Source: Kineosporia mesophila (lineage in GTDB: Bacteria; Actinomycetota; Actinomycetes; Actinomycetales; Kineosporiaceae). From it: a stretch of 64,000 nucleotides of DNA. This document shows positions 53,583 to 61,800 of this stretch, one piece after another (position 1 is the first letter of the stretch; each line of letters opens with the position of its first letter). The DNA lies in the NCBI RefSeq assembly GCF_021129235.1, contig NZ_JAJOMA010000011.1:62001-126000 (forward strand). Reading direction: 5' to 3'. The position numbers and the translations under genes are program-made. The notes beneath the pieces are model-generated. The model ran no database searches, had not been told where the DNA came from, and saw only the letters and a program-made list of their open reading frames with translations.

Positions 53583-55082
53583 ATGCCCACGATGAAAGAC
53601 CTGGTCGCGAAGCAAACCGAACTCAACCAGGCCGACCTCGAGTGGCTGCAACTACTCACCGGCGACTGGCAGCTCCTCTCCGATCTGTCGTTCGCCGACC
53701 TGGTGCTCTGGGTGCCCCGCAAGGGTGACGGCGGCTGGATCGCCGTGGCTCACTGCCGCCCCAGCACGGGCGTCACCGTCTACTACGACGACGTCGTGGG
53801 CATGGTCGTGGACGCCGGGCGGCGTCCACTGCTGGACCGGGCCTACGAGCAGTTGCGGATCTGCCGGGAGCGGGGCACGGACTATCAGGAAGACGTGACG
53901 GTCCGCGAGGAGACCGTGCCCGTGCTGCGGGCGGGCCGGGCCATCGCGGTCCTCGCCCGGCACACCAACCTCTCGGCCGCTCGCACCCCGAGCCGGCTGG
54001 AACTCACCTATCTCCAGTGTGCGGACGAGCTGACCCGGATGATCTGCGAGGGCGAGTTCCCGGCCCCGGGTTCCCCGAGCGGTCCGCGTCGTGGTGCCCC
54101 GCGGGTGGGTGACGGCCTGATCCGGATGGACAAGGAGGGCAAGGTCACCTACGCCAGCCCGAACGCCGTGTCCGCCCTGCACCGGCTGGGGCACTTCGGT
54201 GAGGTCGTCGACCAGAGCCTGTCCGAGATCGTCACCTCGCTGCTCGACCAGCCCGGCCTGGTGGACGAGTCGCTGCCGCTGGTCCTGATGGGACGGGCCC
54301 CCTGGCGCAGTCACATCGAGAACCACGGCGCCACCCTGTCGATGCGGGCCGTTCCGCTGAAGGCGGCGGGCCAGCGGTCCGGCGCCCTGCTCCTGGTCCG
54401 GGAGATCTCCGAGCTCCGCCGGCGGGAACAGGAACTGCTCACCAAGGACGCGACGATCCGCGAGGTGCATCACCGGGTCAAGAACAACCTGCAGACGGTC
54501 GCGGCACTGCTGCGCCTGCAGGCCCGCCGGATCAAGTCGGCGGAGGGCCGGGGCGCCCTGCAGGAGGCGATGCGCCGCGTCTCCACCATCGCGCTCGTGC
54601 ACGAGACCCTCTCCGAGGGATTCGGCGAGAAGGTGGACTTCGACGACGTCGTGGGACGTACCCTGTCGCTGGCGGTCGAACTGGCGTCGCCGTCCAACTC
54701 GGTGAAGATCCGGCGCGAGGGCCGGTTCGGCGAGCTCCGGGCCGAGAATGCCACCCCGCTCGCCCTGGTGCTCACCGAGTTGGTGACCAATGCGGTGGAG
54801 CACGGTTTCCGTGACCGGGGCGGAACGGTCACGCTGATCGCGGAACGGAACGGAGCCGAACTGCGGACGACGATCCGCGACGACGGCAGCGGTCTCCCCG
54901 AGGAGTTCCGCGCCGGTGCTTCAGGTCTCGGGACACAAATCGTCCAGGCCCTGGTGAGTGGGGAGATGCGGGGGCGCATCACCTGGGAGAAGGGGCCGGA
55001 GGGAGGTACGGACGTCATCGTCGAGGTGACCCTGCGCAAGGCAATTGCCAGCGTCTCACCCGAGGACCAGCCCGAGTTCTGA
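53583..55082 (+). CDS. pdtaS: Sensor histidine kinase PdtaS (HWE/HisKA_2 type)
   Basis: 499 residues, soluble. A GAF domain (about 30-150) and a PAS domain (about 175-280) precede the phosphoacceptor helix with REVHHRVKNNLQTVAALLRLQARR (His296-His297) and the ATPase domain (LTELVTNAVEHGF; IRDDGSGLPEEF; GLGTQIVQALV). Its partner PdtaR is an RNA-binding ANTAR antiterminator; none lies in this window. Length and order match M. tuberculosis Rv3220c, which also neighbours whiB1. Signal sensed here is not predictable. Confidence 0.94.
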   Translation: MPTMKDLVAKQTELNQADLEWLQLLTGDWQLLSDLSFADLVLWVPRKGDGGWIAVAHCRPSTGVTVYYDDVVGMVVDAGRRPLLDRAYEQLRICRERGTDYQEDVTVREETVPVLRAGRAIAVLARHTNLSAARTPSRLELTYLQCADELTRMICEGEFPAPGSPSGPRRGAPRVGDGLIRMDKEGKVTYASPNAVSALHRLGHFGEVVDQSLSEIVTSLLDQPGLVDESLPLVLMGRAPWRSHIENHGATLSMRAVPLKAAGQRSGALLLVREISELRRREQELLTKDATIREVHHRVKNNLQTVAALLRLQARRIKSAEGRGALQEAMRRVSTIALVHETLSEGFGEKVDFDDVVGRTLSLAVELASPSNSVKIRREGRFGELRAENATPLALVLTELVTNAVEHGFRDRGGTVTLIAERNGAELRTTIRDDGSGLPEEFRAGASGLGTQIVQALVSGEMRGRITWEKGPEGGTDVIVEVTLRKAIASVSPEDQPEF

Positions 55083-55574: not shown

Positions 55575-55823
55575 TCAGCTGGCGCGACGGGCACGAGCGT
55601 TACGGCGCTTCAGCGCACGACGCTCGTCCTCCGACAGGCCGCCCCAGACTCCGGCGTCCTGGCCGGAGTCGATGGCCCAGCGAAGGCACGTCTCGACGAC
55701 CTCGCATCGACGGCAAACAGCTTTGGCTTCCTCGATCTGAAGGATCGCAGGGCCGGTGTTCCCGATCGGGAAGAACAGCTCCGGGTCCTCCTCGAGGCAA
55801 GCAGCCTCATGGCGCCAATCCAT
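55575..55823 (-). CDS. whiB1: WhiB1-type iron-sulfur transcription factor
   Basis: 82 residues, starting MDWRHEAACLEEDPELFFP exactly like M. tuberculosis WhiB1. The [4Fe-4S] ligands are C9, C37, C40 and C46; then GVWGGLSEDERRALKRR and a basic tail. WhiB1 is a nitric-oxide-responsive, essential regulator in mycobacteria that binds the primary sigma factor. ATG at 55823 is preferred over an in-frame GTG at 55835, whose codon abuts the GAGGA ribosome site. Convergent with pdtaS and preceded by a 755-bp gene-free control region. Confidence 0.95.
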   Translation of the reverse strand: MDWRHEAACLEEDPELFFPIGNTGPAILQIEEAKAVCRRCEVVETCLRWAIDSGQDAGVWGGLSEDERRALKRRNARARRAS

Positions 55824-56578
55824 GGGATCGTCCACTCCTCACGCCCGAACGGGCGGTTGTATACGGTTCGAGACACGGCTGCAGACGCCGTTACTCATGG
55901 ATGTTTGGCCTTCACCCGGTTTGCGGGATGTGGCCGGGGGTGACTGGGCTGACCCAGTCATCGGTGTTTGTGTTTCACGTGTTCGCACCGGATTCGGCAT
56001 CCAGCCTCACACGCTTGTGCCCGCTTTCACAAGGGTTTTCCCCGAGTGATCTGCGCGATGTCTCGTAGCCCACGGTCACGATGCAGGACTGTAGTCGTTC
56101 GAACACGCTGCGTATATACATTGCTGGTCATTGCTCTTGACAGAATCTGCCTGGTCGAACACTGGTTCGCATCCGCCGTGTCCGTTCTGTGACCCAGGGT
56201 GTGGGGCAAAGAACGCGTTTGGTGAACGCTCTCGTACGGCGCGTACATTCCTGAGTGCACGCCGTGAAAGAGCCGGAAGAGTGGTGTCAGGATTCTTCCG
56301 AGTGTTCAACGCAGAGTGAGCCGTACCTTGCTTCGGCTCTTATATTGACGCACGCGCGCCGACTCCGCAGGCTGAAGTGCCCAAAAGACCCCAATGGGGC
56401 CGACTGAGTGCATCGCCGCAAGAATGGCTTTCAAAGCCTTAAGCCTGGGCTGATGTGCTTCTGACAGTCGTTGCCGCAGAACGAACCTCGCGTCTGCGGA
56501 ACCGTGTCGAGTTCGGTTTTAGCGTAGCGGGTTTAATCGCTATCGGGTAAATGGATGATGAGGGAGAGGATGGGTCGG
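55824..56578. other. Long gene-free regulatory region upstream of whiB1
   Basis: About 755 bp, distinctly less GC-rich than the rest of the window, between the divergent whiB1 and a small membrane-protein gene. It contains TATATA near 56113, a TTGACA at 56137-56142 and a LexA-like box at 56155-56170. Small open frames (for example 56131-56319) have no coding bias. It may encode a regulatory RNA or carry several whiB1 promoters. Confidence 0.55.
56155..56170. promoter_or_regulatory. LexA (SOS) box candidate
   Basis: TCGAACACTGGTTCGC matches the actinobacterial SOS box TCGAAC-N4-GTTCGA in 11 of the 12 fixed positions; the CGAAC/GTTCG core is a perfect inverted repeat. It starts 13 nt downstream of a TTGACA on the plus strand and lies 332 nt upstream of the whiB1 start. 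Confidence 0.55.
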
Positions 56579-57001
56579 ATGGCAAGCCAGGAAAGCCCGG
56601 CGGACCGGACCGGGACCGGCGCCGAGGCGAGTGAGAGGCTGCGGCTCCTGGTGGCGGTTCTGGTCGGCCTGGAAGCGCTCGCCCTACTGGCGGGGGCCGT
56701 GGCCCTGGTGATCGAGGGCATCGGGGCCGAACGCCCGATGAACGACATCGGTCTCGCCGTCGTGGCAGCCGTCGTCGGTCTGGCCCTGGGGGGCTGTGCC
56801 CGGGCGATCCGTCAGGGCGCTCGATGGACGCGGGGCCCGGTCCTCACCTGGCAACTGCTCCAGGCGGGCGTGGGCATGCCGGTCTCCGCCAGCAGCCTCT
56901 GGTACGTCGGGATCCCGATCCTGGCCCTCGCGGTCGTCGTCGGGGTCCTCGTTGCCGGCCGTCACGTGATCGTGCGGGAGATAGAAGGGCAGGCCGCCTG
57001 A
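56579..57001 (+). CDS. Small polytopic membrane protein
   Basis: 140 residues with four hydrophobic helices (about 22-42, 52-72, 88-103 and 107-130), the first preceded by a polar, acidic N-terminus. ATG 56579 was chosen because GAGAGG lies 10 nt upstream; ATG 56570 is too close to it. A similar integral membrane gene lies near whiB1 in mycobacteria (Rv3217c region), which is the only hint of identity. No function can be assigned. Convergent with the sigma-factor gene. Confidence 0.7.
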   Translation: MASQESPADRTGTGAEASERLRLLVAVLVGLEALALLAGAVALVIEGIGAERPMNDIGLAVVAAVVGLALGGCARAIRQGARWTRGPVLTWQLLQAGVGMPVSASSLWYVGIPILALAVVVGVLVAGRHVIVREIEGQAA

Positions 57002-57004
57002 CAC

Positions 57005-57066
57005 GTCACCGCACCCGTGCAGGGGTGCGATGACGAAAGTCTTGGGCCCGCCGGCTCCAGGCGGGC
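57005..57066. terminator. Two stacked hairpins between convergent genes
   Basis: Hairpin 1: arms 57005-57016 and 57023-57034, 12 bp with one wobble. Hairpin 2: arms 57046-57052 and 57060-57066, 7 bp perfect, followed by TTCT. They fill the 67-nt gap between the membrane-protein and sigma-factor stops and could serve either strand. Confidence 0.65.
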
Positions 57067-57068
57067 TT

Positions 57069-58124
57069 CTAGAGCTCTTGTGTGAGTCCGCTGCGCAGGA
57101 TGTTGAGGCTCTTGGTCAGCAGCCGGGAGACGTGCATCTGCGAGACGCCCACCTCGGCTGCGATCTGTGCCTGGGACAGTCCCTTGCCGAACCGCAGCTC
57201 GAGAATGCGTTGCTCCCGCTCTGGCAGGCGGGCCAGCAGCGGCCGCAGGGTCTCGCGCTGCTCTACCAGTTCCAGGCCGGCGTCTTCAAAGGCCTTGCCC
57301 ATCCGGTCCGACTCGTCGGCGGTCGTGGGCAGGGGAACGGTGATGTACGCACTGGCCGTGTCGAGCGCCTCGATCACCAGGTCGGCGTCCACATCCAGGT
57401 ATTGGGCGATCTCCTGGACGGTGGGGGAGCGGTCGTGGGTGTGGGTGAGGGTTTCGCGGGCTTCGGAGACGCGGCGGCCGAGGTCTTGGATGCGGCGGGG
57501 GATGCGCATGGCCCAGCCGCGGTCGCGGAAGTGGCGGCGGATTTCCCCGACGATGGTGGGGACGGCGAAGGCGGCGAAGGCTCCGCGGTGGGGGTCGAAG
57601 CGGTCGACGGCGTGCAGGAGGCCGATGGTGCCGACTTGTACGAGGTCGTCGTAGGGTTCGCCGCGGCCTTTGAAGCGTTGTGCGAGGTGGTGGACCAGGG
57701 GCAGGTGCGTCTCGATGATGATGCGCCGCAACTGCTGGTACTGCGGGTCGCCCTTGGACAGGGTCGACAGCCGCAGCAGGTCCGGGTCGGGCGGAGCGGG
57801 TTCCTCGTCGTCCTCTCGGACATGCCGGCCTCGGCGTCGAAGGGCAGCGGGGTCGTCGTCCGCGTTCTCCCTCAGGCGCGTCGCGACCGACTGGGGTGAC
57901 CCGGTCGGCTGCTCGACCGCACGGTGATGCGGAGCCGCAGTGAGCTCCCGGGTCAGGTGGTCGGTCTCCGGTGGGACCTCGGAGGCCGAGTAGATGACGG
58001 GAGAGGCGTCTACTCCGTCCTCCATGGGGTCGGCGTGTGCCTCGGAGGTCTGTGCGTCCGGGGAATCGTCCCGCCGGGGTGTTCGCTGCAGCACGCTGAG
58101 CGTCGACTCCTGCTGCTGGATCAC
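57069..58124 (-). CDS. RNA polymerase sigma factor, SigF/SigB (group 3) type
   Basis: 351 residues. A disordered ~115-residue N-terminal extension precedes region 2 (LVHHLAQRFKGRGEPYDDLVQVGTIGLLHAVDRFDPHRG ... AVPTIVGEIRRHFRDRGW), region 3 (IPRRIQDLGRRVSEARETLT) and region 4 (LPEREQRILELRFGKGLSQAQIAAEVGVSQMHVSRLL, the -35 helix-turn-helix). GTG at 58124 overlaps the anti-sigma stop (GTGA). A block of about 270 bp within regions 2-3 uses a different codon set from its flanks (see findings). It would direct a stress or developmental regulon. Confidence 0.92.
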   Translation of the reverse strand: MIQQQESTLSVLQRTPRRDDSPDAQTSEAHADPMEDGVDASPVIYSASEVPPETDHLTRELTAAPHHRAVEQPTGSPQSVATRLRENADDDPAALRRRGRHVREDDEEPAPPDPDLLRLSTLSKGDPQYQQLRRIIIETHLPLVHHLAQRFKGRGEPYDDLVQVGTIGLLHAVDRFDPHRGAFAAFAVPTIVGEIRRHFRDRGWAMRIPRRIQDLGRRVSEARETLTHTHDRSPTVQEIAQYLDVDADLVIEALDTASAYITVPLPTTADESDRMGKAFEDAGLELVEQRETLRPLLARLPEREQRILELRFGKGLSQAQIAAEVGVSQMHVSRLLTKSLNILRSGLTQEL

Positions 58125-58624
58125 TGGTCTCCCCGTCCGACGTACGTCAGCTTGATCCATGCGCCGTTCTCCCCGATGCCGGTGATGACGTCACCCGCGA
58201 GAGCCTGCAGCACCGCCCAGGCATAGCCGCGCCCCTCGGGGAGCTGGCTGACCGGGCCGGTGATGAGGATGGACAGCGTGCCGCTCCCCGGCGGCCCCAC
58301 CTCGAATTCGGCGTGGATCGCCCGATCGGGATGAGCGCGGCCCTGAAGAAGAAGGGAGCACGCCTCATCGACCGCGATACGCAGGTCCTCGATCTCGTCC
58401 AGCGTCAGATCGAGCCGTGTCGCCAACCCGGCGGTCGCCGTGCGGATCATCGCCAGATAGGCGGGATCGGCCGGAACCCGCAGATCAACGGTGTCCGTGC
58501 TCCGGACGGTCTCGGAGCGGCTGCCGAGCGAAATCGTGCCCACACCCTTCCTGGACCCCACAGAACGAGCTGCGTTGTAGCGGTGTGCGGTTCGTTCGTC
58601 ACCGAACGAAACCGATGTCACCAT
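58121..58624 (-). CDS. Anti-sigma factor / serine kinase-like ATP-binding protein (RsbW/UsfX type)
   Basis: About 140-167 residues. The GHKL ATPase fold is seen in LDLTLDEIEDLRIAVDEACSLLL (N box region) and GRGYAWAVLQALAGDV. In this family the protein binds and inhibits the adjacent SigF/SigB-type sigma factor and phosphorylates an anti-anti-sigma factor. ATG at 58624 is given; a GTG at 58543 lies close to where homology begins and is possible, although the ribosome site there (AGGAAGG) is only 2 nt away. It is translationally coupled to the sigma gene. No anti-anti-sigma gene is nearby. Confidence 0.85.
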   Translation of the reverse strand: MVTSVSFGDERTAHRYNAARSVGSRKGVGTISLGSRSETVRSTDTVDLRVPADPAYLAMIRTATAGLATRLDLTLDEIEDLRIAVDEACSLLLQGRAHPDRAIHAEFEVGPPGSGTLSILITGPVSQLPEGRGYAWAVLQALAGDVITGIGENGAWIKLTYVGRGDQ

Positions 58625-58863
58625 GCGGCAAGGATAGAACACACTGAGTTGTGCTCGGCCCCCTAACTGGCGCACTAGGTCCGGCGATTTTGAGGCCCAG
58701 TAGCTTTACGTCACAACCTGCTGCTATTTGATAGCCCAGAGTCACACGAGTCTCGTGCCGGGCTCCAAGAGTGATGAGTCCGGGACTCACCAGGGTGGCC
58801 CTGTCGCTGTGCGGAACCACGCAGGACTTTCCGCAAATCTGTGGCACCGCCTCGTCCAGTGCA

Positions 58864-61800
58864 TCACGGCTCACCCGGGTTCGTGTCGTCCACGGGGGGC
58901 AGGAGCGGCACCCGTTCAGGGAGCGGCGTTCCTGGCCGTACGCCGCCGGCGCCGGTGATGCCTGCCGATGCCGGGTGCGCGACCTGTACAGAGACCGCCG
59001 TCCCGGCACCGATGAGTACTCCACGACCGGGCGGCCCGGTCGGGTGACGATCGAGCCGGAGCCCGAACACCTCTCCGTCCGTGAGCGTGGGTGTGCCCAG
59101 GACGAGTCCCTGCCGGGCGTCGCGGGCCAGGAGCAGTGGACCCCGGTACGCCGCCACAATGTCATGGCCGGAGGCAGTTAGGACGAGGTGTCCTTCTTCG
59201 CCGTGAGCGCCGGCCAGATGCGCGGACAGAACTTCGGCCAGACCGCCGTCGTCGGGAACCGTGGCACCGGGTGTCGGGGGCAGATCCATCAGCACCACCG
59301 TGCTCGGCAGCAGCGTCAGACGGGCGGCGAGGTCTGCGGCGGTGGTCGTACGCCGGACGGTGCGGCGGTCGAGAACGAAGAAGGGGACGCCCAGCTCCTT
59401 TAGTCCCTCGGCCAGACTGAACAGGGCGGTCGTCCGGCCGCTGCCGCGGCTCCCGAGGATCAGCGTTACCGGGGCCGCAGTCACATCGAGACCTACCGTC
59501 CGCGCCTGCTCGCCGCCGATGCCGATCGGCACGACAATTCCCGGGCCTTCGGTACGAGTCTCCAGCGGGGACAGCACGGTGCGGGAAACCCTTGCCGGAA
59601 GGGCGGGAACGGCCCAGCCGTCGTCCGGCGTCCCGGGTTCTGCGGCCATCGCTCCGCCGGGATGCCCCACCGATCGGGCGACCTGCACCAGGTGGAATTC
59701 GGAACGTCCGGCGGAATGCCACGCACCTCGCCCGGGTCGGTCCGTGCTGCGTGCGAGTTCGGCCGGGACTCCGGCCATCATGGCGTCCGCCGGGTCGGGC
59801 AGGGGCAGGACGAGTCGCTGGGTGAACAACGACGAGTGCGGTCCGGTCAGCAGAGGAAGGGCTCCGGTGACGGCGACGTTGATCGCCACGGCCGGTCCGT
59901 CCCGCAGCACCGTCAGCAGACCGTCCAGGAGCGTGGCACACCCGGGTTCCGACCAGGCCACGGTGAGAGCGTCCCAACCGTCCACGAGCAGGAGCACCCG
60001 GGATCCCGGCCCGGACGCAGGACCCCGCCGCTCATGGAGTTCGTCGACCAGCCGACGCACCAGGCGTCCGGCGCGTTCGTGGTCGTCGAGCCGCACGACA
60101 GCACGCGCGACTCCGCGCGTCTCCAGATCGACGAGCCCCCCGGAGGAATCCAGCACATACGTGTGGACGCGTGCATCTTCGGTATTCGTGGCGCTGACGC
60201 CCAGGGTGCGCAGAACACCGGAACGTCCGGAACGAGCACCGCCCACGACCGCCAGGTGACCGGCGGTGAGGTCCCAGCCGGCTTTCTCCTGACGTTGCTC
60301 GTGAGGGAGGTCGCTCAGCCCGAAGAACAGGTGTCCCGAACGGGAGCCCCGGACCAGCCGGCCGATTTCCAGTTCGGACGCCAGTTCCGGCAACCACGGG
60401 GCCCGGGCCTGGGAGAGACCCAGCTCGGCGGCGGCCGACCGGGTCGCTGCGACCAGCCGTTCCAGATCATGGGGACGGTCTTCCCGGTCGTACGAAGCCG
60501 GTTCGATGGTCGCTACGGCGCGGGAGGACGATCGCAGCAGCCGGACGACGGGCTTACCGATGCCGTGGTCGGCGGGTGGGCGCGTATTCACCCTCGCGGT
60601 CTGGAACTCCACCGGTGCCGTCGCACCGACCCTCAGGAGCGCGCGACCGGGAACCGCGGGCAGCTCCGCAGCCGCCGGGCCTGCGATCAGGTCGTGCGAG
60701 TCGGCGGCGTCCCGGACCCGCAGGGCGATTCGCAGATTGACGTTCGCCGCGATGTCGGGTGAGACCACTCCGGCCGGGCGTTGCGTCGCGAGCACCAGGT
60801 GAACCCCCAGGGAGCGGCCGACCGTGGCGATGCGGACCAGACCGGTGACGAACTCCGGCAGTTCCTCGGCCAGCACCCGGAACTCGTCGACGACCACCAC
60901 GAGCCGCGGCATCGGTTCCAGCGCAGGACGCTGTGCCCGGGCAGCGGCGTAACCGTCGACATCGATGACCCCGGCCTGCAGGAGCAACCTTTCACGACGT
61001 CTCAGCTCCGCGGTGAAGGAGGAGAGGGCCCGTCTCGCCGACGGAAGGTCCAGGTCGGTGAGTACCGCGCCGACGTGGGGCAGACCGGTGCAGGCCTGGA
61101 AGGCGGCCCCACCCTTGTAGTCCACCAGCAACAGGGTGAGCTGGTCCGGACCGGTTCCGGCGGCCAGGGACGAGATCAGAGTCTGGAGCAACTCCGACTT
61201 GCCGGATCCGGTGGTGCCGCCGATCAGTGCGTGCGGCCCGTCTGCACGCAGGTCGATGGTGACCGGGCCGGCTGCGGACTGCCCGAGGACAGCGAGGGTC
61301 GTTCCCTTCTTGCCTCTTTCCGGACCCGATCGCCAGGCCTGTGCGAGCGATGTCCCGTCCAGGGGGTCGACCTTCTGTACCTGTCGTAGAAGGTCGACCA
61401 GCCGGACCTGGTGCGGGATGTCGTTACGGGCGTCGGGAGTGGCATCACGCAGGGGTGCGAGGTCACGAGCCAGTCGGGTGGACCACTGTGCCCCGGCCAG
61501 GTCGGGCCGGAACGATCTCGGGGCCTGTCCGGCCCGGTGCAGCACAGCGGTGTCCATTCCGTCGGTGTGCACGACGGTGGCAGTGCATTCCAGGGGTAAC
61601 GACACCTCGTCCTGCTCCAGGCAGAGGACGACGGTTCCGGCGGCCCGGGTGGCCCGGGTGGGATCGGCCCGCAGGACATGCCTGGTCTCCCGGGTATCAC
61701 CCGGGTCCGTGATCCCTGCTCGGGAGAGTGTCTCCGCGACGTCCGGTCTCCGTCGCAGGCGCCGCGCGCCGTCGAGTACCAGCACCCGAACCGCCCCCGG

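Follow-up and report, generated by a model that had tools for sequence, protein, structure and literature searches.

Recurrent gene conversion and a co-extensive amino/keto codon island in the core of a duplicated Kineosporia sigma-factor gene

Introduction

One sigma-factor gene of Kineosporia mesophila changes its choice of synonymous codons abruptly and changes back some 270 bp later. The original prediction placed this block at 57418-57690 of the window (the whole 64,000-nucleotide stretch of contig NZ_JAJOMA010000011.1 that was analyzed) and read it as a recombination or gene-conversion tract whose codons came from a divergent homolog. The locus thus raises two questions: is the block a conversion tract, and what gave its silent sites their composition?

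Results

A codon island in the core of the sigma-factor gene

The gene, hereafter copy A, encodes a sigma factor of the SigB/SigF/SigG type, a label taken from the annotation of similar plasmid genes, and its closest named relatives are from Kineosporia babensis and K. rhizophila (93-98% protein identity). Pfam domains Sigma70_r2 (aa 149-216), Sigma70_r3 (aa 228-294), and Sigma70_r4 (aa 308-356) were all found above their curated cut-offs, at 74.3, 39.9, and 58.5 bits, respectively. A 184-aa ORF overlapping the start of copy A is likely the cognate anti-sigma factor gene; its HATPase_c_2 match is weak (24.1 bits, below the 27.4 cut-off). A search of 56400-59000 against Rfam at gathering scores found no known RNA element. 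Genes for a PdtaS-type histidine kinase (53583-55082) and a WhiB-type regulator (55575-55835) lie near the sigma-factor gene. The features of the locus are as follows.

57069..58160, minus strand: sigma-factor gene, copy A, 363 aa, SigB/SigF/SigG type (ORF and Pfam)
58121..58675, minus strand: putative anti-sigma factor gene, 184-aa ORF, overlapping the sigma-factor start by 40 bases
57699..58160, minus strand: 5' part of copy A, variable N-terminal extension and start of region 2, paralog specific
57421..57698, minus strand: conversion tract and codon island, residues 155-247, most of region 2 and the start (first third) of region 3
57437..57460, plus strand: G-quadruplex-like motif on the template strand, within the tract near its right edge
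57069..57420, minus strand: 3' flank of copy A, rest of region 3 and region 4, ordinary codon use
57085..57167, minus strand: weaker second patch of within-species similarity between the two gene copies, at the end of region 4, with no codon island

The codon island is real, and the counts first reported for 57418-57690 (90 whole minus-strand codons) proved exact. All 15 Arg codons are CGC, all four Glu codons GAA, all three Gln codons CAA, and all five Pro codons CCC; Leu is CTC five times and CTG once, and Val is GTC five times and GTA once, with GTG absent. In the remaining 273 codons of copy A, GAG outnumbers GAA by 21 to 3, CAG outnumbers CAA by 15 to 4, CTG outnumbers CTC by 23 to 7, and CGG outnumbers CGC by 12 to 7, and there are eight CCG and five GTG codons. 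The residue numbers that had been attached to the block, 145-235, were displaced and are corrected here to about 158-247 (155-247 for the conversion tract).

Third positions in the island are A or C and seldom G or T. As a measure we used M3, the fraction of A or C at degenerate third positions, which is 0.977 for 57418-57690. When synonymous codons were shuffled within the gene, M3 averaged 0.692 (sd 0.038; maximum, 0.830), and none of 20,000 shuffles reached the observed value. The island was also the sole place in the window where a 70-codon frame had an M3 of at least 0.93. Sampling of 2.4 Mb of the Kineosporia genome G005, about 30% of a total of 8.07 Mb, gave 29,988 coding-like frames with a mean M3 of 0.551 (sd 0.088), two of which reached at least 0.95. 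A filtered scan of G005 listed eight stretches with an M3 of at least 0.90, four of which reached 0.95: both copies of the tract described below and two repeat-like frames. The latter, at 588676 and 6365586 (M3 of at least 0.95), are His/Ala/Gln-repeat frames that seem to be low-complexity or wrong-frame sequence. Another A/C-ending frame, G005:C1 6054950-6055433 (M3, 0.91), which we take to resemble a LysM protein, is perhaps derived from a mobile element.

A second copy shares the tract

The window's gene is one of two Kineosporia paralogs, each behind a putative anti-sigma gene, and both copies, A and B, are present in all six genomes of the genus that were examined. In the window's own genome (G000; 7.78 Mb in 61 contigs), copy B runs off the end of contig C45 and resumes at the start of C21 (loci L006 and L007), and it is preceded by DNA resembling the anti-sigma gene (74% across 523 alignment columns). 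In this genome a stretch of 278 nt (57421-57698) is the same in copies A and B, and their 3' flanks differ by 14.7%. The proposal of a conversion tract shared with a paralog was supported, and the edges drawn from codon use lie within 3 and 8 bases of those measured by alignment.

The contig break in copy B falls at the right edge of the identical tract, with the ends of C45 and C21 abutting at an alignment gap of 0, which might point to short reads from two similar genes having been merged during assembly. The probability of such an artifact is practically negligible, however. G005 is assembled as one contig, with A and B lying 1.5 Mb apart in opposite orientation and sharing an identical run of 275 nt, and each of the five genomes other than the window's own has one A/B base difference in the 269 tract positions compared. 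The codon island, moreover, is independent of assembly.

The tract has been homogenized repeatedly

Within each of the six species the tract has been homogenized between A and B, showing recurrent gene conversion. Copies of the same species differ at 0-1 of 269 tract positions (0-0.4%), whereas the tract differs by 1.5-5.6% between species and the 3' flanks of A and B by 14-16% within a species. When A copies were paired with B copies, the true species pairing was the best of 720 for the tract, with 1662/1668 positions identical. Variable columns that agree in both copies of all six species number 17 of 23 in the tract versus 2 of 116 in the 3' flank; fixed differences between A and B number none and seven, respectively. 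Eight species-private states occur in both copies of a species within the 278-nt tract (in four of the six species, with none in G003 and G004) versus four in 394 nt of flank, and states private to one single copy number five in the tract and 69 in the flanks. Within a bounded tract, paralogs are closer within a species than orthologs are between species, the pattern by which concerted evolution is recognized.

Tree comparisons agree with these counts. The approximately unbiased (AU) test rejected a clade of all A copies for the tract (p 0.0037) and rejected same-species pairs for the flank in six of six cases (p 0.0105 or less). Few inner branches were resolved in the tract tree (2 starred of 10) or in the flank tree (1 of 11), and the outgroup branches are long; in the flank tree all A copies lie on one side of a branch with support of 64/99.7, which is not starred. 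The flanks group by paralog, suggesting that the duplication preceded the divergence of the six species. Both flanks were of one paralog type in all 11 complete copies read, as well as in the two contig ends that make up copy B of G000. The right edge of the tract is confined to nt 320-334 of the aligned core throughout the six species, and the left edge varies from nt 28 to nt 54, with isolated mismatches further in.

A small same-species excess was also seen in the pairing test for the whole 3' flank (4 of 720) and for the 50-nt 5' flank (24 of 720). In the 3' flank it comes mainly from the region 4 patch, where same-species A/B identity is 0.944 versus 0.918 over all pairings (1 of 720; M3, 0.56), and less from nt 335-460 (29 of 720). 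We also compared 13 pairs of sequences lying more than 30 kb apart in the 2.4 Mb of G005. Among the diverged pairs, a long identical run was confined to the sigma-factor pair (275 nt), the next longest being 36 nt. Kept separate from this comparison, as a recent copy, is a 990-bp segment present twice, at G005:C1 189386-190375 and 6248496-6249485, with 98.9% identity and without homologous flanks; as a recent dispersed copy of that kind, the pair, which contains a 311-nt run, was rejected as a control.

The G-quadruplex-like motif near the right edge was considered as a trigger of conversion. It is found in both copies of five of the six species and is missing from both copies of G002, whose tract is nevertheless homogenized, so the motif is not required.

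The island coincides with the converted tract

Twelve Kineosporia genes were compared in six-codon bins. Mean M3 was 0.85-1.00 within core codons 18-107 and 0.31-0.75 outside them, and A/B identity shifted at the same bins, so that island and tract coincide to within about six codons. In all 12 genes G occupies 2-7% of third positions in the tract versus 38-56% in the 3' flank, and over the 12 genes XAA:XAG codons stand at 84:18 in the tract versus 53:209 in the flank.

The idea that a divergent donor had supplied the unusual codons was not supported. The island is found in the paralog too, and in both copies of every one of the six genus genomes, so the paralog cannot have brought foreign codons. 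The original prediction had regarded the presence of the block in every close relative, at ordinary levels of synonymous divergence, as evidence against conversion; all relatives within the genus do have the block, but their synonymous divergence does not follow an ordinary pattern.

Beyond the genus, seven family relatives have one strong match each, and none of the seven has an island (third-position G, 28-44%); an apparent second copy in the family genome G009 is a 121-nt contig-end overlap. Among the best 80 of 163 other sigma-factor loci, 76 have an M3 of at most 0.70, including five family relatives (L047-L051) that were also scored for third-position G, and the remaining four are Kineosporia loci (L043-L046) in which the island is present. 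Eleven loci from the class (L206-L216) have M3 values of 0.61-0.78. The island, present in duplicated, converting copies and absent from single-match relatives, thus goes with the duplicated, converting state.

Another possibility is import of the tract from a lineage that prefers C- and A-ending codons, followed by its spread into both copies. Codon use of this sort does extend more widely in at least one actinobacterial locus (L208; M3 of 0.78 in the corresponding region and 0.87 in its flank). Of the places listed outside the family in a search of 394 class genomes (235 with matches; at most two candidates scored per genome), none exceeded 76% DNA identity as a donor of the tract, and the plasmids and phages also searched gave 60-80% in 31 plasmid records and a single phage match at 71.5%. 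The protein encoded by the tract is closest to the island-free family relatives (79-84% amino acid identity, compared with 58-70% for the 11 class loci). An imported tract would also be expected to drift back through ordinary substitutions; instead, C↔G changes are about 21-fold rarer than in the flank and A↔C changes are normal, as detailed below. Import is therefore very improbable in our judgment, and the sigma-core protein looks vertically inherited, with its silent sites shifted.

Silent sites are shifted along an amino/keto axis

Parsimony events were counted over the six species, and three alternative trees gave nearly the same numbers. The counts are small, with 21 synonymous events in the copy A tract and 23 in the copy B tract that are not independent of each other, and the six genomes are related. 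A↔C events per A/C site number 0.11-0.12 in the tract and 0.11-0.13 in the flank. This turnover at the flank rate indicates that tract sites are not frozen by a need for one fixed sequence. C↔G events, by comparison, number 0.02 per site in the tract versus 0.51 in the flank, and all amino↔keto changes together 0.14-0.15 versus 0.80; C↔T changes are strongly reduced in the tract. The A↔G class is not reduced, at 0.73-0.82 per A/G site in the tract versus 0.42 in the flank, with eight events on eight Glu/Gln/Lys sites in the tract versus 22 on 38 in the flank; A prevails at the A/G sites of the tract yet turns over freely. First and second codon positions show a slight shift at most, with six K→M and two M→K consensus changes in the tract and 16 and 13, respectively, in the flank.

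GC-biased gene conversion is a conversion-linked shift at synonymous sites, and the sigma tract likewise has a silent-site shift linked to conversion. Since conversion itself is shown, the ordinary GC-biased form has to be considered, but we give it almost no credence. GC3 of copy A is about equal inside and outside the tract (0.88 and 0.85, respectively), and G has given way to A in most of the Glu, Gln, and Lys codons. With GC3 hardly moved, the bias is not a GC bias: unlike in GC-biased gene conversion, its axis runs between amino (A/C) and keto (G/T) bases and depends on the strand.

Selection on the message or its codons

The main alternative supposes that A or C is selected at third positions in the mRNA or codons of the sigma core, for example to keep the message unfolded, with conversion present but not the cause. 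The tract has a predicted folding energy of −82.9 kcal/mol, weaker than the −111.0 kcal/mol (sd 6.5) of 200 synonymous sequences sampled according to the codon frequencies of one large gene in the window. Predicted values for five of the six Kineosporia copy A tracts range from −79.6 to −85.6 kcal/mol, and for the same region the five family relatives folded (of seven) range from −129 to −142 kcal/mol. A preference for A or C that is indifferent between the two would also produce the same substitution classes. Folding of the tract, on the other hand, is no weaker than its base make-up predicts, synonymous sequences restricted to A and C averaging −74.2 kcal/mol. Selection of this kind also has to account for the lack of an island in all seven family relatives with one strong match, and the edges of the selected region would have to coincide by chance with those of conversion on both sides.

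The island does not look like adaptation to preferred codons in a comparison with EF-G, a gene expected to be highly expressed, which uses GAG, CAG, and AAG in the two genomes compared (L217 and L218). Rows for L218, L219, L220, and L225 in which a wrong or antisense frame had been taken were left out. In G000, EF-G has 56 GAG to 7 GAA, 45 AAG to 1 AAA, and 27 CAG to 1 CAA. Selection on the mRNA or codons is possible, though on this evidence somewhat doubtful.

A candidate mechanism for a conversion-linked strand bias

We lean, by a little, toward an explanation in which recurrent conversion acts on the pair and the island is the product of a strand-asymmetric conversion process. Such a process would keep the amino bases A and C on the coding strand and the keto bases G and T on the template, and ongoing conversion would uphold the bias. 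The sharp edges could arise because flank divergence of about 15% hinders strand exchange, and selection may in addition keep paralog-specific residues outside the tract.

Actinobacteria mostly lack MutS and use NucS. The NucS domain (PF01939) was found in all six genus genomes, and the MutS_V domain (PF00488) in none of the six. NucS/EndoMS, the actinobacterial mismatch endonuclease for the keto-keto mismatches G-G, G-T, and T-T, is a candidate only. In the available part of one report, NucS repaired G-G, G-T, and T-T in Mycobacterium smegmatis in vivo and no other mismatch tested (PMC11551767), and according to the accessible portion of another, it limits recombination between non-identical sequences (PMC8228993). 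As far as these partial sources go, the substrate classes of NucS are the mismatch classes of the sigma-tract axis (PMC11551767, PMC8228993). An A↔C difference would form an A-G or C-T heteroduplex, invisible to NucS in both orientations, and any amino↔keto difference would be visible to it in exactly one of the two heteroduplex orientations. Together with a constant polarity of strand exchange, NucS could thus give a strand-specific drive, the sign of which is not derivable from the data.

The A↔C, C↔G, and C↔T classes fit NucS, and the A↔G class does not fit simply. A strong NucS effect sits poorly with the data because G-T is the favored substrate and yet the A↔G class is not reduced. This unreduced turnover lowered our estimates for NucS and for the explanation as a whole and raised that for selection on the mRNA. 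Quite unlikely, in our estimate, is a form of biased gene conversion, in bacteria with NucS and not MutS, by which recurrent conversion of constant strand polarity drives silent sites to A or C on one strand and to G or T on the other because keto-keto mismatches alone are cut. If it were true, the Kineosporia sigma-factor pair would be a fossil record of that drive, nearly saturated by long repetition.

A NucS-linked bias would be expected to leave the same asymmetry in other converted tracts. It was seen neither in the region 4 patch nor in a tandem array of G005, whose 18 identical runs of 80-299 nt have M3 values of 0.23-0.61 and no island. These runs and the region 4 patch (M3, 0.56), free of bias, indicate that conversion alone is not always enough to produce it. 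The array used as this control (G005:C1 4044000-4072500, within L167-L168) is one open frame of about 9,500 codons built of modules of about 2 kb, roughly 78-85% alike and with many identical runs, and is perhaps a site of internal homogenization. The available portion of an M. tuberculosis preprint suggests that recombination in mycobacteria may dampen the activity of NucS (PMC13061034). In the open-licence literature searched, part of it available only as partial text, no report of biased gene conversion by NucS was found.

A mutational variant, which we consider distinctly unlikely, fits the data about as well as NucS drive. In this variant the template strand, single-stranded during repeated recombination, would lose cytosines through deamination and repair, so that G on the coding strand would become A or C. 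With no selection involved, it would explain both the A-ending codons (GAA, CAA, and AAA) and the C-ending ones (CGC, CTC, and CCC); it also accounts for the free A↔G turnover and fits the edges of the tract. It leaves the island-free converted runs elsewhere unexplained.

Discussion

Concerted evolution of distant duplicate genes is already known, on the available part of the source, from the duplicate tuf genes of Salmonella, which evolve in concert by non-reciprocal gene conversion (PMC5485169). As described there, the two chromosomal tuf copies are distant, inversely oriented, and homogenized (PMC5485169), and the sigma-factor pair of G005 has the same layout. The tuf copies are, in that partial account, nearly identical gene-wide (PMC5485169), whereas only the central 278 bp of the sigma-factor pair is homogenized and the rest has diverged by about 15%. 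Unlike tuf, the converted sigma tract also has a strand-asymmetric codon use of its own.

A second parallel is paralog conversion in M. tuberculosis, also an actinobacterium, in which short conversion tracts with a median of 101 bp are reported in the available portion of the preprint (PMC13061034). Its authors raise, in that portion, NucS and recombination-associated repair asymmetries as able to reshape base composition (PMC13061034). That work, as far as the partial text goes, concerns diversity among isolates of one species (PMC13061034), whereas in Kineosporia the sigma core is homogenized genus-wide. The Kineosporia tract differs further in its nearly complete shift to A/C over G/T.

What seems new is homogenization limited to the core module of a sigma-factor pair throughout a genus, together with a co-extensive amino/keto codon island. 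No report of either was found in the open-licence literature, a scope that leaves most subscription papers outside. The pair suggests that copying, or something tied to copying, reshapes the DNA of the tract. It offers a sharp natural case of silent sites reshaped along the amino/keto axis and not in GC content, and it makes testable whether actinobacterial mismatch repair leaves a conversion bias of its own. It also cautions against taking every local codon island for foreign DNA.

Region 2 of a sigma factor binds core polymerase and the −10 element. Lasting homogenization limited to this domain keeps the region 2 module common to both copies as their ends drift apart, and may be a way to arrive at two regulators, controlled differently, that recognize similar promoters. 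At the protein level, the residue after the DP of region 2 is H, Q, or T depending on the species, and the two copies of a species agree at it (L008, L013, and the other A/B loci); this species-specific residue is a protein-level mark of conversion.
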